NCBI RefSeq assembly: GCF_020164585.1 | Contig: NZ_JAIQZF010000002.1 | Location: forward strand, 248,001-312,000 | Source of the DNA: Psychroflexus curvus | Lineage (GTDB): Bacteria > Bacteroidota > Bacteroidia > Flavobacteriales > Flavobacteriaceae | Length of the DNA: 64,000 nucleotides | Reading direction: 5' to 3' | In this document: one piece after another, positions 3,208 to 10,362 of the stretch | Layout: the number at the start of each line of letters is the position of its first letter | Position numbering within the stretch: the first letter of the stretch is position 1 | Program-made: the position numbers and the translations under genes | The notes under the pieces: generated by a model | The model's input: the letters and a program-made list of their open reading frames with translations, nothing else | The model's database searches: none | Told to the model about the DNA's origin: nothing

Positions 3208-3243
3208 AACCCTGTAAGAGTTCTCAACTCTTACAGGGTTTTT
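3208..3243 (+). terminator. Perfect 15-bp hairpin followed by T run (repeat family member)
   Basis: Arms 3208-3222 and 3226-3240 are perfectly complementary (left arm AACCCTGTAAGAGTT) with a three-base loop and six T residues at the end of the right arm and beyond. It would terminate transcription of the thioredoxin-like gene. A degraded relative lies at 10021-10058, on the other side of the bacteriocin locus, so this is probably a dispersed repeat as well as a terminator. The rest of 3074-3410 is AT-rich with nothing recognisable. Confidence 0.7.
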
Positions 3244-3410
3244 GATTATTAACTACTCGACTTCTTCTAAATCTTTTTATTTTATTAAAATTTAAAAATA
3301 TATTTAGTTCAGTTACATTCAAAAAACGAATGAAATAATCCAATTTGGATTTAAGTTGTCGATAAAGTTATAATATCTAATTATTATATAGTTTTTCTTT
3401 ATTTAAAAAA

Positions 3411-4547
3411 GTGAACTTCAGTTCAGACCCAGTTCATACACAGGAAAACTTAATCAATAAGTATTCTACCAAAACCAACTTGGTATACATTATTGTGTTG
3501 CTTAGCCTTGTCGGGTTGTTGATTTCTCTGCCTTTTATTAGAATTGATATCACTGCACAAAGCAGAGGTATTGTCAGGAGTGAAATGGAAGATGTTCCGC
3601 TTTTTTCTGTAGTAAGTGGAAGGGTTGAATACATCAATTTAAGAAATAACCAACGCGTTAACCAAGGTGATACTCTTCTTGTCGTAGCCAAAGACATTAT
3701 CGATGCCCAAAAAAAAATTCAAGAACAATTAAAGGACACTGACAGCTTGCTTTATGAGGATTATAATCACGCCATTAGTTTCCGAAAGGATTCTATTATA
3801 ACTACAACCGTTCTAGAAGATTATATCCAATATGAAGCAAATCTTAATGAATTAAAAAACAGAGAAGAACAGTCACGTGTTAATTTTAGTCGGTATAAAA
3901 TTCTTTATGAAAAAGGAGTGATTGCTAAAATGGAATATGAACACTATTTATACAAACTCCGCCAAGACCAGAGAGCCCTATCTGCTTTGAAAAAGAGGCA
4001 AATAGCTGACTGGGAATTACAGAAAAGAAATCTCCTTGAAAAACTTCAACAACAAAAAGGAAGTTTAGAAAGACTAGAGGCGGAAGAAGAGAACTACTTT
4101 ATTACCGCTCCCGAAAAGGGAAGTATAGATCGCTTTGTGGGATTGCAACAACAGTCTTTTATAATGCCACAACAAACTATAGCTTACCTGTCTCCAGACA
4201 AAAAATTAATTGTTGAAAATAGGGTAAGCCCACAAAATATCGGCCTTCTTAAAATAGGACAAGAAGTGAAATTTCAGCTGGACGCCTTCAATTATAACCA
4301 ATGGGGGCTTCTAACTGGTAAAGTGTATGACATCGCCCAAAATGTGACTATCGAAAACGAACAAGTCTATTTTAGAGTTCGTTCAGAGCTAGACGAGACG
4401 ACCTTAAGCCTTAAAAATGGGTATACCGCTTCTGTCAGTAAAGGAATGACCCTGACCTCCAGATTCATTATTACAGAAAGAAGTCTTTACGACTTGATAT
4501 TTGATAAAGTAGATGATTGGCTTAACCCGAAATTAATGACACAGTAG
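3411..4547 (+). CDS. HlyD-family membrane fusion protein of peptide exporter
   Basis: The 378-residue protein has one transmembrane segment (about residues 24-43), a biotinyl-lipoyl-like domain (about 60-90), a long coiled-coil region (about 95-225) and a C-terminal beta-barrel region. This is the architecture of HlyD-type adaptor proteins that connect a peptidase-containing ABC transporter to an outer-membrane channel. The chosen start is GTG at 3411, because no ATG precedes the hydrophobic segment in frame. Its stop codon directly abuts the ATG of the C39 transporter gene at 4548, so the two are surely co-transcribed. Together with the downstream double-glycine peptides it points to bacteriocin or signal-peptide export. 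The outer-membrane channel is not in this window. Confidence 0.9.
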   Translation: MNFSSDPVHTQENLINKYSTKTNLVYIIVLLSLVGLLISLPFIRIDITAQSRGIVRSEMEDVPLFSVVSGRVEYINLRNNQRVNQGDTLLVVAKDIIDAQKKIQEQLKDTDSLLYEDYNHAISFRKDSIITTTVLEDYIQYEANLNELKNREEQSRVNFSRYKILYEKGVIAKMEYEHYLYKLRQDQRALSALKKRQIADWELQKRNLLEKLQQQKGSLERLEAEEENYFITAPEKGSIDRFVGLQQQSFIMPQQTIAYLSPDKKLIVENRVSPQNIGLLKIGQEVKFQLDAFNYNQWGLLTGKVYDIAQNVTIENEQVYFRVRSELDETTLSLKNGYTASVSKGMTLTSRFIITERSLYDLIFDKVDDWLNPKLMTQ

Positions 4548-6707
4548 ATGGCTTCCGTACAAATTAAACAACACGATATAAAAGACTGTGGGGCCGCTTG
4601 TTTAGCTTCTATTGGTAACCATTATAATGTCAATCTGCCCATAGCTAGAATAAGACAAATTGCTCATACCGATAAACGCGGCACCAATGTTTTGGGTATG
4701 ATAGAAGCTGCCGAGAAAATGGGCTTTACCGCAAAAGGGGTTAAAGGAGGGTTAGATGCTTTAGACCAAATTCCATTACCTGCTGTTGCTCACGTTGTTT
4801 TAAAAAATCAACTGCAGCATTATGTGGTTATCTATAAAGTGTCGCTGAAAGGGGAAGGGAAACTAAAAGTCATGGATCCTGGTAACGGTAAGTTTAAAAC
4901 CTATACCGCAAAGGAGTTTCAGGAAATATGGAGCGGCGTACTTATTTTATTTGCCAAAAGCAACGACTTCAAAACCTACAATGAACAGATTTCGCCCATC
5001 AAGCGGTTTTATGACTTAATACAACCACATAAATCTATTCTTTTCCAGGCTTTATTTGGGGCTATTGTATTTACGCTTCTTGGATTAGCTATGTCTATTT
5101 ATATCCAAAAAATAACGGACTATGTATTGGTTGAAGGCAATAGGAATTTACTGAATCTACTGAGTTTAGGGATGATAGGAATTATACTGCTTAGGCTTTT
5201 TGTAGGCGCATCTAAAAGTATAATTGTCCTTAAAACTGGACAAATCATAGATACCAAGCTTATTTTGGGTTACTACAAGCACTTGCTTAAACTTCCCCAA
5301 ACCTTTTTTGATACCATGCAAATTGGGGAAATCACTTCCCGAGTAAGCGATGCCGTAAAAATAAGAGCCTTTATAAACGATGTCGCCATAGATATGATAG
5401 TCAATATCTTTATTGTGATTTTTTCCTTTGGGTTGATGTTTACCTTTTACTGGAAACTGGCAGTGGTTATTTTGCTAGTCATCCCACTCTACATTATCAT
5501 TTATTTCATCATGAACTATTTCAACAAAAAAGTTGAAAGACGAATGATGGAAAATGCGGCTTCATTGGAAACTCAACTTGTAGAAAGTTTAAGCAATGTA
5601 AGAACCGTAAAAGAATTCGGCATAGAAGGCTATTCCAATATTAAAACTGAAAACCGATTTGTAAAACTATTATTTACCACTTATAAATCCGGATTGAACA
5701 ATATATTTGCTGGGAGCTCCACTCAGTTTATTGCGTCTGTGTTTACGGTAATTTTAATGTGGGTGGGTGCAGGTTATGTGATTGACCAAGAAATCACCCC
5801 AGGAGAATTGTTCTCATTTTATGCTTTAATTGGTTACTTTACGGGGCCTATTGCTTCCCTAATTGGCATGAACAAAACCATACAAAATGCGTTAATAGCT
5901 GCAGACCGTCTCTTCGAAATCATGGATTTGGAACGCGAAGAGATTACGCATAAATCCCATTTGCCAAAAGAAGAGATTGGCGATATTCGTTTTGAAAATG
6001 TAAGCTTTAGATACGGCTCCAGAGTACAAGTCTTTGAAAATTTCTCATGCCACTTCCCTAAAAATCACACCACTGCCATTGTGGGCGAAAGCGGTTGTGG
6101 TAAAACGACGCTTATCTCTTTGATACAAGCTTTATATCCTTTGCAGGAAGGAAAAATTTATATAGGAAATTTTGACCTTAATTATGTAAGCAAAGAATCC
6201 CTTAGAAGGAGTATAGGTGTTATCCCGCAAGAACTCAAACTATTTACAGGAACAATTATAGAAAACATTGCTTTAGGAGAAGAATTCCCCGACATGCAAC
6301 GTATTCTAACGCTGTCTAAAGAGCTAGGCATAAATGAATTTGTAGAAAAATTGCCCATGGGTTTTGAAACTCAGGTGGGCGAAAATGGAGCTATGCTTTC
6401 TGGAGGGCAGAAACAACGTATAGCTATTGCACGGGCCTTATATAAAGATCCTGCTATTTTGCTTATGGACGAAGCTACTTCTGCTTTAGATACGAGTGCG
6501 GAAAAAGTGGTGCAAACAACTATTGAAAATTTTAAAACTGATAATAAAACCGTAATAGTAATTGCTCATCGCTTAAGCACTATAAAAAATGCAGACCGTA
6601 TTTTGGTAATGAAAGATGGAGCAATAAAAGAAGAAGGAAGCCACCAGGAACTCATAAACCAAAAAGGCTTGTATTATGAGCTATGGGAAAAACAGAGTTT
6701 GGTTTAA
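4548..6707 (+). CDS. Peptidase-containing ABC transporter (C39 peptidase, double-glycine peptide exporter)
   Basis: The 719-residue protein starts with a C39 cysteine-peptidase domain: catalytic Cys14 in the motif QHDIKDCGAAC, His91 and Asp110. A six-helix membrane domain (about 155-440) follows, then an ATPase domain with Walker A GESGCGKTT (near 513), signature LSGGQKQR (near 616), Walker B plus DEATSALD (near 640) and the H-loop histidine (near 674). Such transporters cut the leader after Gly-Gly and export the mature peptide. Three candidate substrates lie 0.8-3 kb downstream. All catalytic residues are present, so it should be active. Confidence 0.95.
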   Translation: MASVQIKQHDIKDCGAACLASIGNHYNVNLPIARIRQIAHTDKRGTNVLGMIEAAEKMGFTAKGVKGGLDALDQIPLPAVAHVVLKNQLQHYVVIYKVSLKGEGKLKVMDPGNGKFKTYTAKEFQEIWSGVLILFAKSNDFKTYNEQISPIKRFYDLIQPHKSILFQALFGAIVFTLLGLAMSIYIQKITDYVLVEGNRNLLNLLSLGMIGIILLRLFVGASKSIIVLKTGQIIDTKLILGYYKHLLKLPQTFFDTMQIGEITSRVSDAVKIRAFINDVAIDMIVNIFIVIFSFGLMFTFYWKLAVVILLVIPLYIIIYFIMNYFNKKVERRMMENAASLETQLVESLSNVRTVKEFGIEGYSNIKTENRFVKLLFTTYKSGLNNIFAGSSTQFIASVFTVILMWVGAGYVIDQEITPGELFSFYALIGYFTGPIASLIGMNKTIQNALIAADRLFEIMDLEREEITHKSHLPKEEIGDIRFENVSFRYGSRVQVFENFSCHFPKNHTTAIVGESGCGKTTLISLIQALYPLQEGKIYIGNFDLNYVSKESLRRSIGVIPQELKLFTGTIIENIALGEEFPDMQRILTLSKELGINEFVEKLPMGFETQVGENGAMLSGGQKQRIAIARALYKDPAILLMDEATSALDTSAEKVVQTTIENFKTDNKTVIVIAHRLSTIKNADRILVMKDGAIKEEGSHQELINQKGLYYELWEKQSLV

Positions 6708-6867: not shown

Positions 6868-6946
6868 TGGATTGTATCATGACCAAACTTATCGATAAAA
6901 AAAAGTACTGTATGATGAGCTTTGGGAAAAGCAAAGCTTAGTTTGA
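6868..6946 (+). pseudogene. 3' relic of a second C39/ABC transporter gene
   Basis: Codons 6908-6946 read LYDELWEKQSLV and stop, almost identical to the last residues of the intact transporter (LYYELWEKQSLV, 6669-6707). Upstream, 6888-6902 reads LIDKK, matching LINQK in the intact gene but in another frame, with a slip in the run of eight A. The relic is about 240 bases downstream of the intact gene. It implies that a tandem transporter copy once existed and was deleted, or that this cluster arose by recombination between two. It overlaps the 3' end of the reverse-strand XRE gene by nine bases. Confidence 0.75.
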
Positions 6947-7333
6947 GGTGCGAAATTGCTCAAGGCTTAAACGCAATTCTTTGATGAGATGATCTTTATC
7001 CTTTATGCGTTCTTCGTATAAATTTATGATTTTCAAAAGTTGTGTTTTATCGTCTTGGGGAGGGTCTGGTGTTCTTTTTAGGTATGCTGAAAGGTATTCT
7101 TTATTGGTAGGGGTGGGTTGGTTTTTAGAACCTAAGCCTAATAAATCTTCGAGTTCTACTTCAAGAATCTCAGCAATTTTAAATAAACGTTCTACACTGA
7201 GTTTGGTTTGATTACGCTCAATTTTGGAATAGGCCGCCTGACTAATATCTAAGCAAATAGACATATACTCATGTGAATAATCCTTATATCTCCTTACGCG
7301 TTCAATATTTTTTAACACATCTTTGATTTCCAT
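6938..7333 (-). CDS. XRE-family helix-turn-helix regulator
   Basis: A protein of 131 residues beginning MEIKDVLKNIERVRR. An XRE/Cro-C1 type helix-turn-helix covers about residues 5-65, with the typical YSKIERNQTKLSVERLFKIAEILEV core. The C-terminal region is charged and probably helical. The open frame extends upstream to 7390, but those 19 residues are hydrophobic and unlike the family, so the ATG at 7333 is preferred. It is divergent from the first bacteriocin precursor gene (7483) and separated from it by 149 bases that contain three phased AAGTRAT repeats. A role in controlling the precursor genes or itself is inferred, not shown. Confidence 0.85.
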   Translation of the reverse strand: MEIKDVLKNIERVRRYKDYSHEYMSICLDISQAAYSKIERNQTKLSVERLFKIAEILEVELEDLLGLGSKNQPTPTNKEYLSAYLKRTPDPPQDDKTQLLKIINLYEERIKDKDHLIKELRLSLEQFRTSN

Positions 7334-7381
7334 AAGTGATAAGGTTTTTATTAAAAGTAATAAAATAATCTGTAAAGTAAT
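7334..7381. promoter_or_regulatory. Three phased AAGT(G/A)AT repeats: operator-like
   Basis: AAGTGAT (7334-7340), AAGTAAT (7355-7361) and AAGTAAT (7375-7381) lie in direct orientation with start-to-start spacing of 21 and 20 bases, that is two helical turns. The first directly abuts the start codon of the XRE gene (7331-7333). This is the pattern expected for binding of a regulator on one DNA face, most simply XRE autoregulation and control of the divergent precursor genes. The sites are short and the region is AT-rich, so chance is not excluded. Confidence 0.4.
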
Positions 7382-7482
7382 GAAAAACAATGCGTTAACT
7401 TATTAATTTTATAATATCAAAATATCTCGAGAAAAACTTTTGATGCGATTAAAACAATTTATTAACTTAAATCTTAGAAATC

Positions 7483-7686
7483 ATGAATTTAAAAAACTTA
7501 AATGTGATTGAGCTGAGTGCTCAGGAGTCTATTTCAATTGATGGTGGTGGGGTAGGAGGATTACTGAAATTATTGAAATATGGAAAAAAATATGGAAAAA
7601 AGCTACTCGAAGTTGCTGGAGTATATGATGCTATAAGTGATTTTAAAGAGGGTTGGAATTCAGTTGATTGTGATTGTAATTGTTAA
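7483..7686 (+). CDS. Double-glycine leader peptide 1 (bacteriocin-like precursor)
   Basis: A 67-residue peptide. Residues 1-22 form a typical C39 leader (hydrophobic residues with ELSAQES, ending I-D-G-G at 21-22). The predicted mature part is 45 residues: Gly-rich start (GVGG), a cationic stretch (KYGKKYGKK, 32-40), an amphipathic segment and a Cys-rich tail DCDCNC (62-67). It lies behind the C39 transporter and 16 bases ahead of a second such peptide, as in two-peptide class II bacteriocins. A secreted signal or toxin role is inferred. Cleavage could also occur one residue later, because three glycines follow each other. Confidence 0.8.
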   Translation: MNLKNLNVIELSAQESISIDGGGVGGLLKLLKYGKKYGKKLLEVAGVYDAISDFKEGWNSVDCDCNC

Positions 7687-7702: not shown

Positions 7703-7885
7703 ATGCAAAATATTAATTATAAAGAACTTGAAATAGATGAACTATTAATTATTAATGGAGGTGGTCTTTTTAAAGATTTTGGAAAATGGTGTAAAGAAAC
7801 ATGGTGCTCCATTAAAGATTTTGAACTTGAGTATCCAGAAAAATCTCCTGGAATGACTTGGAATGAATATAACGGGAAGTTTTAA
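7703..7885 (+). CDS. Double-glycine leader peptide 2 (bacteriocin-like precursor)
   Basis: A 60-residue peptide with a 20-residue leader ending I-N-G-G (residues 17-20) and a mature part of 40 residues starting GLFKDFGKW, with Cys30 and Cys35 that could form a disulfide. The frame is open upstream to 7637, but that extension overlaps precursor 1 and has no leader character, so the ATG at 7703 is chosen. It follows precursor 1 closely and overlaps the CPBP gene by 23 bases. It may be the partner peptide of precursor 1. Confidence 0.8.
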   Translation: MQNINYKELEIDELLIINGGGLFKDFGKWCKETWCSIKDFELEYPEKSPGMTWNEYNGKF

Positions 7886-8363
7886 TTTTTTAAGAATTTA
7901 CAATAAATTAGATAGGAAGTTTAAGCTTCCTATCTTTTTTGTTGTCTTTATTTTAGATTTTATTTATCATTCAATCGTTTCATTGTTTATTACTCTTTAT
8001 GATCCTACAATTTTAGAATCATTCGAAGAAGGTACTTCTCTTATTGAAATATTTTTATTATCAGTATTAATAGGTCCCTTAGTTGAAACTTTTCTTTTTC
8101 AATATTTAATAATTGAAATATTATATGCCTTTAAAAAAATAAAACTTGAAGTTATTTTAATTGTTTCAGCATTAGCCTTCAGCCTCATTCATACTTATAA
8201 TTTTATTTATATCATAGTAACATTTACTTCTGGTTTGATATACGCTTCCTACTATTTATACTTAAAAAAATTTAAGAGAAGATTTCCTTTTATTCAAGTT
8301 TGGGCGCTGCACACATTATATAATTTAATAGTATTCATATTAGATGATGTTTTAAATTTTTAA
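7863..8363 (+). CDS. CPBP-family intramembrane protease-like protein, candidate immunity protein
   Basis: The 166-residue protein is strongly hydrophobic with about five membrane segments. CPBP (Abi/Rce1-like) motifs are visible: motif 1 as V-E-T-F-L-F-Q (in place of E-E-x-x-x-R), motif 2 F-S-L-I-H, and motif 3 H-T-L-Y-N. CPBP proteins next to class II bacteriocin genes often give self-immunity, and here the gene overlaps precursor 2 by 23 bases, which suggests translational coupling. The changed motif 1 (second Glu to Thr, Arg to Gln) leaves open whether it is proteolytically active; Glu-Thr variants do occur in the family. Confidence 0.75.
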   Translation: MNITGSFNFLRIYNKLDRKFKLPIFFVVFILDFIYHSIVSLFITLYDPTILESFEEGTSLIEIFLLSVLIGPLVETFLFQYLIIEILYAFKKIKLEVILIVSALAFSLIHTYNFIYIIVTFTSGLIYASYYLYLKKFKRRFPFIQVWALHTLYNLIVFILDDVLNF

Positions 8364-8602: not shown

Positions 8603-8740
8603 ATGAAAACAACATCAATTTTTAACAAGAAGTTACTTTATTATGCCTTAGCTATTTTAGCACTCGTTATTTTTTATATCATCTTTAGTGACTGGGAAAA
8701 TTTTAAAGCTGGTCTCACGGGTAATCCTCCAGTTTTTTAA
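8603..8740 (+). CDS. Tiny membrane protein (45 aa) with DWENFKAGL motif
   Basis: ATG at 8603 opens a 45-residue frame: short basic N-terminus, one transmembrane helix (about residues 11-28) and a C-terminal tail SDWENFKAGLTGNPPVF. It is too short for standard gene callers but lies one base after the preceding frame and 20 bases before a hairpin terminator. The tail resembles the tail NHPEDVISGFNS of the small protein at 9314. It could be a bacteriocin immunity or accessory peptide; no function is established. Confidence 0.55.
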   Translation: MKTTSIFNKKLLYYALAILALVIFYIIFSDWENFKAGLTGNPPVF

Positions 8741-8760
8741 TTCCATAAATCTTAAATTCT

Positions 8761-8788
8761 AGCACATAACTTTTTCAAGTTATGTGCT
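8761..8788 (+). terminator. 12-bp hairpin in duplicated unit, copy 1
   Basis: Arms 8761-8772 (AGCACATAACTT) and 8777-8788 are perfectly complementary with a TTTC loop, followed by an AT-rich tail (TATTTAATTT). It is likely a terminator for the 45-residue ORF upstream. It is repeated exactly at 9270-9297. An ATG follows 16 bases after the hairpin in both copies. Confidence 0.55.
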
Positions 8789-8804
8789 TATTTAATTTAT
8801 TAGC

Positions 8805-8923
8805 ATGAAAAATATTTTATACTATTAGCATTATTATTAACTATGTTAATTAATGACGCTCAAAATCATCCCAAAGACTTTATATCTGGATTCAATTCAA
8901 TTGAAAATCCTTACGAAAAATAA
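8805..8923 (+). pseudogene. Frameshifted copy of the small membrane protein at 9314
   Basis: ATG at 8805 reads MKNILYY and stops at 8826-8828. The continuation in another frame reads LLALLLTMLINDAQNHPKDFISGFNS to a stop at 8921-8923, clearly homologous to the intact protein at 9314-9475. Bases missing after the TACTAT codons relative to copy 2 caused the frameshift. Confidence 0.7.
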
Positions 8924-8999
8924 TCTAAGAACAATTAATATCCAAAATGATGATACATAATTCAAGAGTGTTGAGGTAAAAATTCTTATCTATTTGATT

Positions 9000-9125: not shown

Positions 9126-9227
9126 ATGTTTAAGAAATCGGAAAGTTTTCTAATTTTATTATCAATTCTGTTAATAACCTTATTGAAAATCTATACGTTA
9201 GGTAAGTATGTGGGCCGATATTTATAG
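9126..9227 (+). CDS. Tiny membrane peptide (33 aa) with YTLGKYVG motif
   Basis: ATG at 9126 encodes a 33-residue peptide: basic start MFKKSE, one hydrophobic helix (8-20) and the end KIYTLGKYVGRYL. The motif Y-x-[FIL]-G-x-x-[ILV]-G (residues 23-30) is shared with the ORFs at 9472 and 9845 and with precursor 3 at 9591. That shared motif is the main reason to think it is real, since it is very short. It may interact with the peptide in the membrane, possibly as immunity; this is inference. Confidence 0.5.
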   Translation: MFKKSESFLILLSILLITLLKIYTLGKYVGRYL

Positions 9228-9263
9228 GGTCTACAATTTTAAATTATTAATGAAATCGAACAG

Positions 9264-9452
9264 AATTCTAGCACATAACTTTTTCAAGTTATGTGCTTAT
9301 TTAATTTATAAGCATGAAAAACATCTTATACTATTTAATACTACTAGCACTATTAATAGCTATGTTTATCAATGATGCTCAAAATCATCCTGAAGACGTC
9401 ATATCTGGATTTAATTCAATTGAAAATCTTTACGTAAAATTATCTAAGGACA
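9264..9452 (+). repeat. Copy 2 of the duplicated hairpin plus small-gene unit
   Basis: Diverged direct duplicate of 8755-8931. It contains the same hairpin (9270-9297) and the intact version of the small gene. Confidence 0.7.
9270..9297 (+). terminator. 12-bp hairpin in duplicated unit, copy 2
   Basis: Identical to the hairpin at 8761-8788: arms AGCACATAACTT and its complement, TTTC loop, then TATTTAATTT. Confidence 0.55.
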
Positions 9453-9475
9453 TAATTCAAATTAAAAAATTATGA
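9314..9475 (+). CDS. Small membrane protein (53 aa) with NHPEDVISGFNS motif
   Basis: ATG at 9314 encodes 53 residues: an N-terminal hydrophobic helix (about 4-19) and a soluble tail with NDAQNHPEDVISGFNSIENLY. A frameshifted copy lies at 8805. The stop codon overlaps the ATG of the next small ORF (9472) in an ATGA arrangement, which suggests translational coupling. The tail resembles that of the protein at 8603. A role with the bacteriocin peptides is suggested by position only. Confidence 0.65.
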   Translation: MKNILYYLILLALLIAMFINDAQNHPEDVISGFNSIENLYVKLSKDIIQIKKL

Positions 9476-9609
9476 CAAGAGAACAGATTAAACCATTAAT
9501 TTATCTAGGATTAAGCATTCTAGGGATATTATTATATTTAAATATAGTGGATATATCATATGATTTTGGCAAAGAACTGGGGGGCTATTTATGTTCTCTC
9601 CAAAATTAA
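9472..9609 (+). CDS. Tiny membrane protein (45 aa) with YDFGKELG motif
   Basis: ATG at 9472 overlaps the previous stop and encodes 45 residues: one membrane helix (about 9-25) followed by VDISYDFGKELGGYL. The motif Y30-x-F-G-x-x-L-G37 matches that in the ORFs at 9126 and 9845 and in precursor 3. Its last 19 bases overlap the start of precursor 3 (9591), so the two are probably coupled, which fits an immunity or chaperone partner for that peptide. Confidence 0.6.
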   Translation: MTREQIKPLIYLGLSILGILLYLNIVDISYDFGKELGGYLCSLQN

Positions 9610-9782
9610 AATGTGTTTATAAATCAAATGTAACTGAGCTTACTCAGCAAGAACAAAGGAATATTAATGGAGGTGCTTGGTGGATAGTTGTAGCAGCTTG
9701 CATAACTGCAGTTAATGAATTAGGTGATATTGCCTACAATATAGGAAACGACATAGGTGAGTCTATGGTAAAAAATCAATAG
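9591..9782 (+). CDS. Double-glycine leader peptide 3 (bacteriocin-like precursor)
   Basis: A 63-residue peptide. The leader (residues 1-28) ends I-N-G-G and contains the typical ELTQQEQRNINGG pattern. The predicted mature peptide is 35 residues: AWWIVVAACITAVNEL, then GDIAYNIGNDIGESM with a GxxxG motif (residues 52-56), then KNQ. Hydrophobic start plus GxxxG is typical of class II bacteriocins, where GxxxG mediates helix pairing. The likely exporter is the C39 transporter at 4548. Confidence 0.8.
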   Translation: MFSPKLKCVYKSNVTELTQQEQRNINGGAWWIVVAACITAVNELGDIAYNIGNDIGESMVKNQ

Positions 9783-9844
9783 TTTTATTATACCGTAATA
9801 ATAAAAAGTTACAACGGTATGTTTTAACATTAATAAATTTAATT

Positions 9845-9976
9845 ATGGAAGTAAAATTTGATTCGATTTATGAAACTGTTCTATTTTATATTTTTGTTCT
9901 GATAATTTTTATAAATTCGATCGGTAACATTATGTATGAATTAGGAAGAACATTGGGGAAAGCCTTAATAGATTAG
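9845..9976 (+). CDS. Tiny membrane protein (43 aa) with YELGRTLG motif
   Basis: ATG at 9845 encodes 43 residues: one membrane helix (about 11-27) and the tail SIGNIMYELGRTLGKALID. Y31-x-L-G-x-x-L-G38 aligns with the motif of precursor 3 and of two other tiny ORFs. It lies 62 bases after precursor 3; the spacer holds a weak inverted repeat (ATACCGT at 9790, ACGGTAT at 9814). Confidence 0.55.
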   Translation: MEVKFDSIYETVLFYIFVLIIFINSIGNIMYELGRTLGKALID

Positions 9977-10020: not shown

Positions 10021-10058
10021 GTCAACTCTGCGAGAGTTTTAAACCCTTACAGGGTTTT
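10021..10058 (+). repeat. Degraded relative of the 3208-3243 hairpin element
   Basis: GTCAACTCTGCGAGAGTTTT followed by AAACCCTTACAGGGTTTTCA aligns along its whole length with 3205-3244, in the same orientation. It can form two small hairpins (10024-10038 and 10042-10056) and could terminate transcription at the end of the bacteriocin locus. The remainder of 9977-10362 shows no gene. Confidence 0.55.
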
Positions 10059-10362
10059 CATGGTCGAAAAACTCCCATTACGGGTGAAATTTTCTTGTAT
10101 GGCATTACTCCATGCCATAAAATCCAAATTGACCACCTAAAATAAGCCTTTCCGCTATCATAACATTCTATCAAAATTGGCTTTTGTTAAATTCATTCGA
10201 CTTAATTTTGAAATTCAATAAAATGTTTGATAAATATCAAGAGTCGATATGATTTTTACTGAACATGAATGTTATATCGCAGTGTTCTTTTTGACTTTGG
10301 CTTTTTCCATTTGTATTGAAGAACTCAACTATTTGAAAACACACTAGATTTAAAACGAAACT

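Follow-up and report, generated by a model that had tools for sequence, protein, structure and literature searches.

The question raised by this locus is why a peptide export cassette should carry, beside its peptide genes, several tiny membrane ORFs whose C-terminal residues resemble those of one of the peptides. The window analysed here is a stretch of 64,000 nucleotides from Psychroflexus curvus. In its initial annotation, tiny membrane proteins were found to share a motif with a bacteriocin precursor, and two readings were offered, namely, that membrane-anchored mimics bind the peptide through GxxxG helix pairing and give immunity, or that all are variant toxins and antidotes from one ancestor. 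Judged by its genes, window segment 3411-9976 is a class II-like bacteriocin cassette with a C39/HlyD exporter and GG-leader peptides, its antibacterial activity being putative (Table 1). The reading favoured here, at a probability of about 0.6, is that the tiny membrane ORFs encode cognate immunity proteins that would act as membrane-anchored toxin mimics; they are called mimics below.

Table 1. Features of the cassette and its flanks in the window (TM, transmembrane)
Feature	Positions	Strand	Remarks
Palindrome of the AACTCTTACAGGGTTTTT type, upstream copy	3225-3243		Flanks the cassette
Periplasmic adaptor (HlyD type) for peptide export	3411-4547	+	Pfam PF13437 (1e-14), PF16576
C39-peptidase ABC exporter	4548-6707	+	Peptidase_C39 (PF03412, 7e-35), ABC_membrane, ABC_tran
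Cro/C1-type HTH regulator	6938-7390	-	Divergent to the peptide genes; probably the cassette regulator
GG-leader precursor 1	7483-7686	+	Leader MNLKNLNVIELSAQESISIDGG; mature part ends in ...VYDAISDFKEGWNSVDCDCNC
GG-leader precursor 2	7703-7885	+	Leader MQNINYKELEIDELLIINGG, read from the ORF listed at 7637
CPBP/Rce1-like membrane protease	7863-8363	+	PF02517 (2.9e-8)
Small TM ORF 8603, candidate class B mimic	8603-8740	+	C-terminal FSDWENFKAGLTGN; [DN][WH]..F..G type
Broken upstream copy of the terminator plus TM ORF unit at 9264-9452	8755-8933	+	Direct repeats D1/D2, 86-96% identical
Small TM ORF 9126, class A motif	9126-9227	+	YTLGKYVG; 33 aa; conserved in P. sediminis
Small TM ORF 9314, class B-like	9314-9475	+	FINDAQNHPEDVISGFNSIENLY; DAQNHPEDVISGFNSIENLY; [DN][WH]..F..G type
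Small TM ORF 9472, candidate class A mimic of precursor 3	9472-9609	+	DISYDFGKELG against DIAYNIGNDIG
GG-leader precursor 3	9591-9782	+	Mature part AWWIVVAACITAVNELGDIAYNIGNDIGESMVKNQ, holds YNIGNDIG
Small TM ORF 9845, candidate class A mimic of precursor 3	9845-9976	+	IIFINSIGNIMYELGRTLGKALI against ITAVNELGDIAYNIGNDIGESMV; motif YELGRTLG
Palindrome of the AACTCTTACAGGGTTTTT type, downstream copy	10041-10059		Flanks the cassette

The window holds a C39-peptidase ABC exporter together with its adaptor, as in class II GG-leader loci, and the exporter presumably cleaves the GG leader and exports the peptides; against TIGR01193 it scored 519.9 bits, under the cutoff of 523.9. Short GG-leader precursors with a mature part of 20-60 aa are encoded by ORFs 7483, 7703 and 9591. 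Precursor 2 gave no family match in Pfam and NCBIfam searches, and precursor 3 reached 20.3 bits with TIGR03949 (lactobin A/cerein 7B family), through its leader part only and below the curated cutoff of 21.5, so that it is not counted as a member. The mature part of precursor 3 was modelled by AlphaFold as one helix (residues 19-61, mean pLDDT 77). The CPBP/Rce1-like protease is of a type known among bacteriocin immunity or maturation proteins. The palindrome that flanks the cassette on both sides occurs in two copies versus 0.1 expected; it may represent a terminator or REP-like element, or else a remnant left when the cassette moved.

Among the 584 ORFs of at least 25 aa in the six frames of the window, only four contain the motif Y-x-[FIL]-G-x-x-[ILV]-G, once each, namely, precursor 3 and ORFs 9126, 9472 (YDFGKELG) and 9845, the four reported initially. 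As had been described, the motif lies where the hydrophobic stretch ends on its outer side. Residue shuffles gave a mean of 0.165 occurrences (about 0.17) with a maximum of 2, and in 20,000 shuffles the motif never appeared in more than one of the four ORFs. A second motif class, absent from the initial annotation, is present in the same locus in ORFs 8603 and 9314. None of ORFs 8603, 9126, 9314, 9472 and 9845 had a significant NCBIfam match, nor had 8603, 9314 and 9845, the three searched, a significant Pfam match; the Pfam, NCBIfam and PDB searches yielded neither a described immunity family nor a relative of solved structure, and membership in a family of immunity proteins described by Pfam or NCBIfam models was accordingly rejected for the ORFs searched.

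To place these ORFs in a wider setting, neighbourhoods of related C39 exporters were collected from genomes of the family, of a Flavobacterium-like genus, of the phylum and of GTDB species, yielding 163 unique Bacteroidota loci with 349 predicted GG precursors, the precursor calling being heuristic. The homologous loci are partly non-independent, and near-identical ORFs were removed. Many of these loci have, downstream of a precursor, an ORF with one helix and no leader whose last residues are those of the mature peptide, e.g., peptide GYAIGKFHAHSENNK and membrane ORF GYAIGKFMAHWENSK or YATGYAIGKFHAHSENNK and YQGGYAIGKFMAHWENSK (L142), GYTVGKDLYHLMND and GYEFGKDIYHILNP or MAGYTVGKDLYHLMND and MIGYEFGKDIYHILNP (L084), GRACGEALYYATH and GRIVGEAFFYFTH or GAGRACGEALYYATH and FIGRIVGEAFFYFTH (L133), FEKGEAYGRSLAN and FEFGENYGRTLAK (L126), YYGSKEVGKAIYLLTH and YYSGKVIGKAIYYLVN (L212), TDWDGFKAGISGGI and KNWNDFISGISGGI (L077), and RFVSGLVMPFCNN and HFSNGLVSPFSDN (L081). 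The alignment of matched pairs mostly reaches the C-terminus of both partners, and DNA identity within the matched blocks is moderate (0.41-0.67). Commonly, the gene for peptide alpha is followed by that for a second short peptide, beta, and this by the mimic of alpha, an arrangement reminiscent of two-peptide bacteriocins that have a single immunity gene. A general absence of such ORFs beside homologous precursors elsewhere, the observation named at the outset as speaking against the family, was looked for, and this outcome did not occur: the pairs recur in many species.

Three comparisons were made of own-locus and foreign peptides. In test 1, membrane ORFs lying no more than 1 kb from a precursor (86 after removal of redundant ones) were compared with the peptides of their own locus and with foreign ones. 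Of the 86, 15 matched an own-locus peptide better at p <= 0.05 versus 4.3 expected, and 10 reached 0.0005, the lowest p that the permutations allow (combined p 1e-12). Test 2 was blind to hydrophobicity and took small ORFs on both strands within 1 kb of a precursor, with a score of at least 36 and p <= 0.05 required. Of 586 operon-strand ORFs 22 passed, compared with 1 of 618 opposite-strand ones (Fisher 1.3e-6), and at a score of at least 40 the counts were 15 and 0; of the 22 operon-strand positives, 17 are transmembrane and 21 lie downstream of the peptide, i.e., on the same strand as and beside the cognate peptide, as is usual for an immunity gene. Pairing each ORF with its nearest precursor was rejected as an unbiased rule, since it mispairs two-peptide loci, and was replaced in test 3 by comparing the best match among own peptides with the best among equally many foreign ones, for class A ORFs only and counting identities outside the two glycines. 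The combined p was 2.5e-7 (Fisher), with 8 of 22 ORFs at p <= 0.05. As far as sequence comparison can tell, the C-terminal match thus goes beyond GxxxG and is own-locus specific (p about 2e-7), so that the putative antidote carries sequence of the toxin in a pair-specific manner, as in wtf-like mimicry.

Within the window, the proposed kinship of the three class A membrane ORFs with precursor 3 holds for two of them. ORF 9845 matched precursor 3 at p 0.0005 in test 1 and at 0.043 in the strict test 3, and ORF 9472 at 0.007 against other-locus peptides in test 1 and at 0.065 in test 3; ORF 9126 shares the generic motif only, its match beyond the motif not being significant (p 0.22 in test 1, 0.81 in test 3). 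The class B ORFs resemble peptides of other species: among all collected precursors, the best match of 8603 is ITDWDGFKAGISGGI of another species (L077, score 58), its match to its own precursor 1 being not significant (p 0.34), and the best match of 9314 is the Chryseobacterium antibioticum peptide WEATHDPKDMQAGYNAVHGSYH (L150, score 49). Both ORFs look like mimics of peptides made by other strains, to judge from these matches, a significant cognate being absent from the window. The unit of terminator and TM ORF that includes 9314 is duplicated; the frame of the upstream copy ends after MKNILYY and the downstream copy (ORF 9314) is intact.

Some further ORFs of the survey stand apart from these pairs. 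In loci L118 (5383/5605) and L125 (5363/5571), another pairing type is seen, in which peptide SHLKDFVEGIACGLAFAGFLASVL is accompanied by a membrane ORF of about 58 aa with KHISSFLIGISCSLTVLFFIYI, and the segment common to both is not C-terminal in the membrane protein. At L223, a precursor-like ORF (3867, MKEGYWAILLTAVGMSCVGAAWVFDKGEAYGKHLAEK) without a GG leader matches the peptide of L224, and may be a glimpse of a peptide gene becoming a leaderless mimic. Candidates in L106 and L105 and some low-score matches were rejected as mimics, being extra precursors, composition effects or overlapping ORFs.

Class A TM ORFs number 44 in 28 loci, and every one of them is encoded on the operon strand. 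Their N-terminal side is net positive in 40 of 44, from which the positive-inside rule predicts an N-in helix and a periplasmic position for the copied end; an inner-membrane location is likewise predicted by the hydrophobic helix, the charge pattern and the single helix in AlphaFold models (for ORF 9845, residues 2-42 with the motif included, pLDDT 94). Between the first glycine of the motif and the C-terminus, the median distance is 11 residues. GxxxG is common to nearly all class A pairs, and relative to the first glycine identities are in excess at -10, -3, +1, +5 and +8, a pattern as from one helical face; helical periodicity of the pair-specific identities was strongest at 100 degrees and not significant (p 0.15). 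Class A mimics are found in 28 of the 150 loci of this exporter clade, so immunity in the remaining loci must come from elsewhere, and such mimics would be one among several solutions in the clade.

The sister species Psychroflexus sediminis DSM 19803, whose exporter protein is 95% identical to that of the window, was collected under two locus numbers (L039 = L147). All three class A membrane ORFs are intact there, with the motifs YTLGKYLG, YDFGKELG and YELGKTLG, and within the genus orthologues of 9845 and 9472 were found in P. sediminis only. Comparison with the window gave pN/pS values of about 0.04/0.09, 0.07/0.21 and 0.04/0.11 for ORFs 9126, 9472 and 9845, replacement differences thus being rarer per site than silent ones, though the few changes make this a weak measure. 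At the position of precursor 1, P. sediminis has a different peptide with an unchanged leader type. The leader and mature part of its precursor 3 are nearly identical to those of the window, and its start codon is out of frame through a one-base length difference in an A-run (L039 10891-10910); the peptide thus seems silenced while the three membrane ORFs survive. The A-run difference could reflect phase variation, recent inactivation or a sequencing error.

Mimics are also kept where the toxin or the exporter is missing. A profile built from nine class A mimics was run against 300 genomes from the Flavobacterium-like genus, 37 of which carry the exporter of this clade, and gave 22 matches below 1e-5, 13 of them within 5 kb of such an exporter. 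Two matches lie between genes for an M50 (site-2 protease-like) protein and an OYE-type oxidoreductase, a site that holds the whole cassette in more than 20 producers: L302 has two mimics and L307 one, neither with an exporter or precursor. Among 40 further exporter-less sites sampled, 33 were empty gaps of about 150-200 bp, and the remaining seven held mimics only (2, L309 and L328), an ABC permease/ATPase pair only (4) or precursors (1). In all, four exporter-less Flavobacterium genomes have mimic-only M50-OYE sites. Elsewhere, an intact mimic stands beside a truncated HlyD gene and a 191-aa exporter remnant (L301), an array of three different mimics accompanied by CPBP-like ORFs is separated by 0.8 Mb from the exporter of its genome (L305), and a mimic adjoins a CPBP-like gene in a genome in which the exporter of this clade was not detected (L300). 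L303, L304 and L306 adjoin exporters of another C39 clade, and L308 was set aside as a weak match that is probably unrelated. Retention by non-producers, as known for orphan immunity genes, is thus seen at L300, L302, L305, L307, L309 and L328. Mimics without toxin or exporter behave as immunity genes do and unlike toxins, which favours antidotes over toxins; by these genome comparisons the mimics are most likely antidotes, as several genomes keep them after loss of the peptide and the exporter.

The M50-OYE gap of Flavobacterium is in itself a hotspot that may be empty or occupied by a bacteriocin cassette, by mimics alone or by an ABC pair alone. The lone two-gene transporter (a permease of ~300 aa and an ATPase of 211 aa) was seen at L312, L314, L319 and L332 (about 3300-4880), and such a pair also adjoins complete cassettes (L074 8159-9690). 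A further means of immunity, of the LanFEG/BcrAB type, is its probable role.

Protection by the mimics would proceed as follows. Each mimic would span the membrane by one N-in helix, with positive charge at its N-terminus, and its C-terminal segment, a copy of that of the secreted peptide, would face the periplasm; for lack of a GG leader, the mimic would be neither cut nor exported and would stay in the inner membrane of the producer. The mature peptide would insert its own helix from the periplasm, and the mimic would pair with the inserted peptide via the common [FYW]xxGxxxG face and the tail, blocking pore formation or target engagement as a dominant-negative antidote. We infer the expression of the mimics, the immunity and the pairing step from sequence. 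That membrane-anchored mimics give immunity, as initially proposed, is supported by the recurring cognate pairs, their specificity and their retention without exporter or peptide, whereas pairing through GxxxG is put forward as a hypothesis (periodicity p 0.15). Immunity by mimicry has points against it, in that 9126 has no specific match to precursor 3 and orphan ORFs are possibly kept for another reason; the CPBP protease, present in this locus and in many others, could be an alternative source of immunity.

In an alternative last step, the mimic would sit in a membrane receptor site that the peptide needs and recognises by its C-terminal motif, blocking access and leaving the peptide unbound. 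The residue-by-residue match of the pairs, including the polar tail after the motif, would be explained equally well, and class II immunity has been discussed as acting on the peptide or via its membrane receptor (PMC8538875). No receptor is known, though, and no third gene is constant across the cassettes, so that this version is considered rather unlikely. Because the class A core is GxxxG, the classical motif of helix self-pairing, found in all class A pairs, direct pairing is favoured over receptor occupancy by about two to one within the confidence given to immunity by mimicry. It is very unlikely that the membrane ORFs encode toxins or second components of their own, e.g., leaderless bacteriocins or truncated descendants of precursors. 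The common C-termini, the leaderless ORF at L223 (3867) and a DNA identity that allows common descent would fit such an origin, but the mimics have lysine-rich N-in anchors and lack a GG leader for this exporter, and they persist without exporter or precursors, where a toxin minus its antidote would burden the cell; the occupied exporter-less hotspot sites held mimics alone twice, the ABC pair alone four times and precursors once. The suggestion that all are variant toxins is therefore left unsupported.

GxxxG with an aromatic residue is common in membrane helices, and 9126 and several other ORFs fit their own peptide no better than foreign ones, as would be expected of generic single-helix proteins that resemble the peptides by convergence or chance and have no functional link to them. 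The permutation nulls, which keep composition and motif, contradict this (p 1e-12 and 2.5e-7), as does the asymmetry of the mimics in strand and order, and convergence or chance resemblance is considered very improbable. A different peptide-related task, such as peptide sensing for regulation or chaperoning of export, would agree with the position of the mimics beside exporter and peptides and with those class B ORFs that have no cognate peptide in their locus. It is judged highly improbable, since arrays and exporter-less islands leave no peptide to export and the mimics show no consistent link with a kinase or regulator.

Literature searches of open-licence papers turned up no bacteriocin for which immunity is described as resting on a mimic of the toxin; bacteriocin immunity is of a known kind and the mimicry mechanism may be new. 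A comparable design is the holin/antiholin pair S105/S107 of phage lambda, in which a near-copy of the protein that forms the membrane lesion, with an altered N-terminus, serves as a dominant-negative partner; these are two starts of one gene and set the timing of lysis rather than immunity to a secreted peptide. The nearest working analogy, one without homology, is provided by the wtf poison-antidote drivers of fission yeast, in which the antidote carries the sequence of the poison, the C-terminal match matters and co-assembly neutralises (PMC11892871); that system is eukaryotic, and its antidote has the further role of directing the poison to the vacuole. Among Gram-positive bacteria, class IIb peptides characteristically contain GxxxG, and their immunity proteins have been suggested to act on the peptide or a receptor (PMC8538875, PMC6957408). 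LagC, CbnZ and LciM, immunity proteins of this class, are membrane proteins reported to share little beyond TM segments (PMC6957408). The mimics are like them in being small membrane proteins encoded beside GG-leader peptides with GxxxG motifs, and unlike them in having one helix and 33-54 aa and in ending as the cognate peptide ends, for which nothing similar was found described for class IIb. In Gram-negative Caulobacter, the Cdz system likewise combines type I-secreted glycine-zipper peptides (CdzC and CdzD) with a small inner-membrane immunity protein, CdzI (PMC5380434); it works through contact-dependent aggregates, and the part of its description drawn on here does not present CdzI as resembling CdzC/D. 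Bacteroidetocins are Bacteroidota GG-leader peptides exported by a C39 ABC transporter as well, and their four-gene loci have no identified immunity gene and the producers are self-inhibited (Coyne et al. 2019, PMC6671954), whereas the present loci carry cognate mimic genes.

Bacteriocin immunity is poorly understood, above all in Bacteroidota. A general principle may be at work in this phylum, for which we see about an even chance: the antidote would be a membrane-tethered copy of the C-terminal recognition segment of a secreted membrane-active peptide, the same residues would set specificity in toxin and antidote, cognate pairs could be read from sequence, and non-producers would collect arrays of copies as a defence repertoire. 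If true, this would supply a sequence rule linking toxin and antidote, by which immunity genes become discoverable by alignment and specificity codes become testable; it would explain the tiny membrane ORFs of non-producers, and poison-antidote systems whose antidote is itself a form of the poison would gain a bacterial counterpart.
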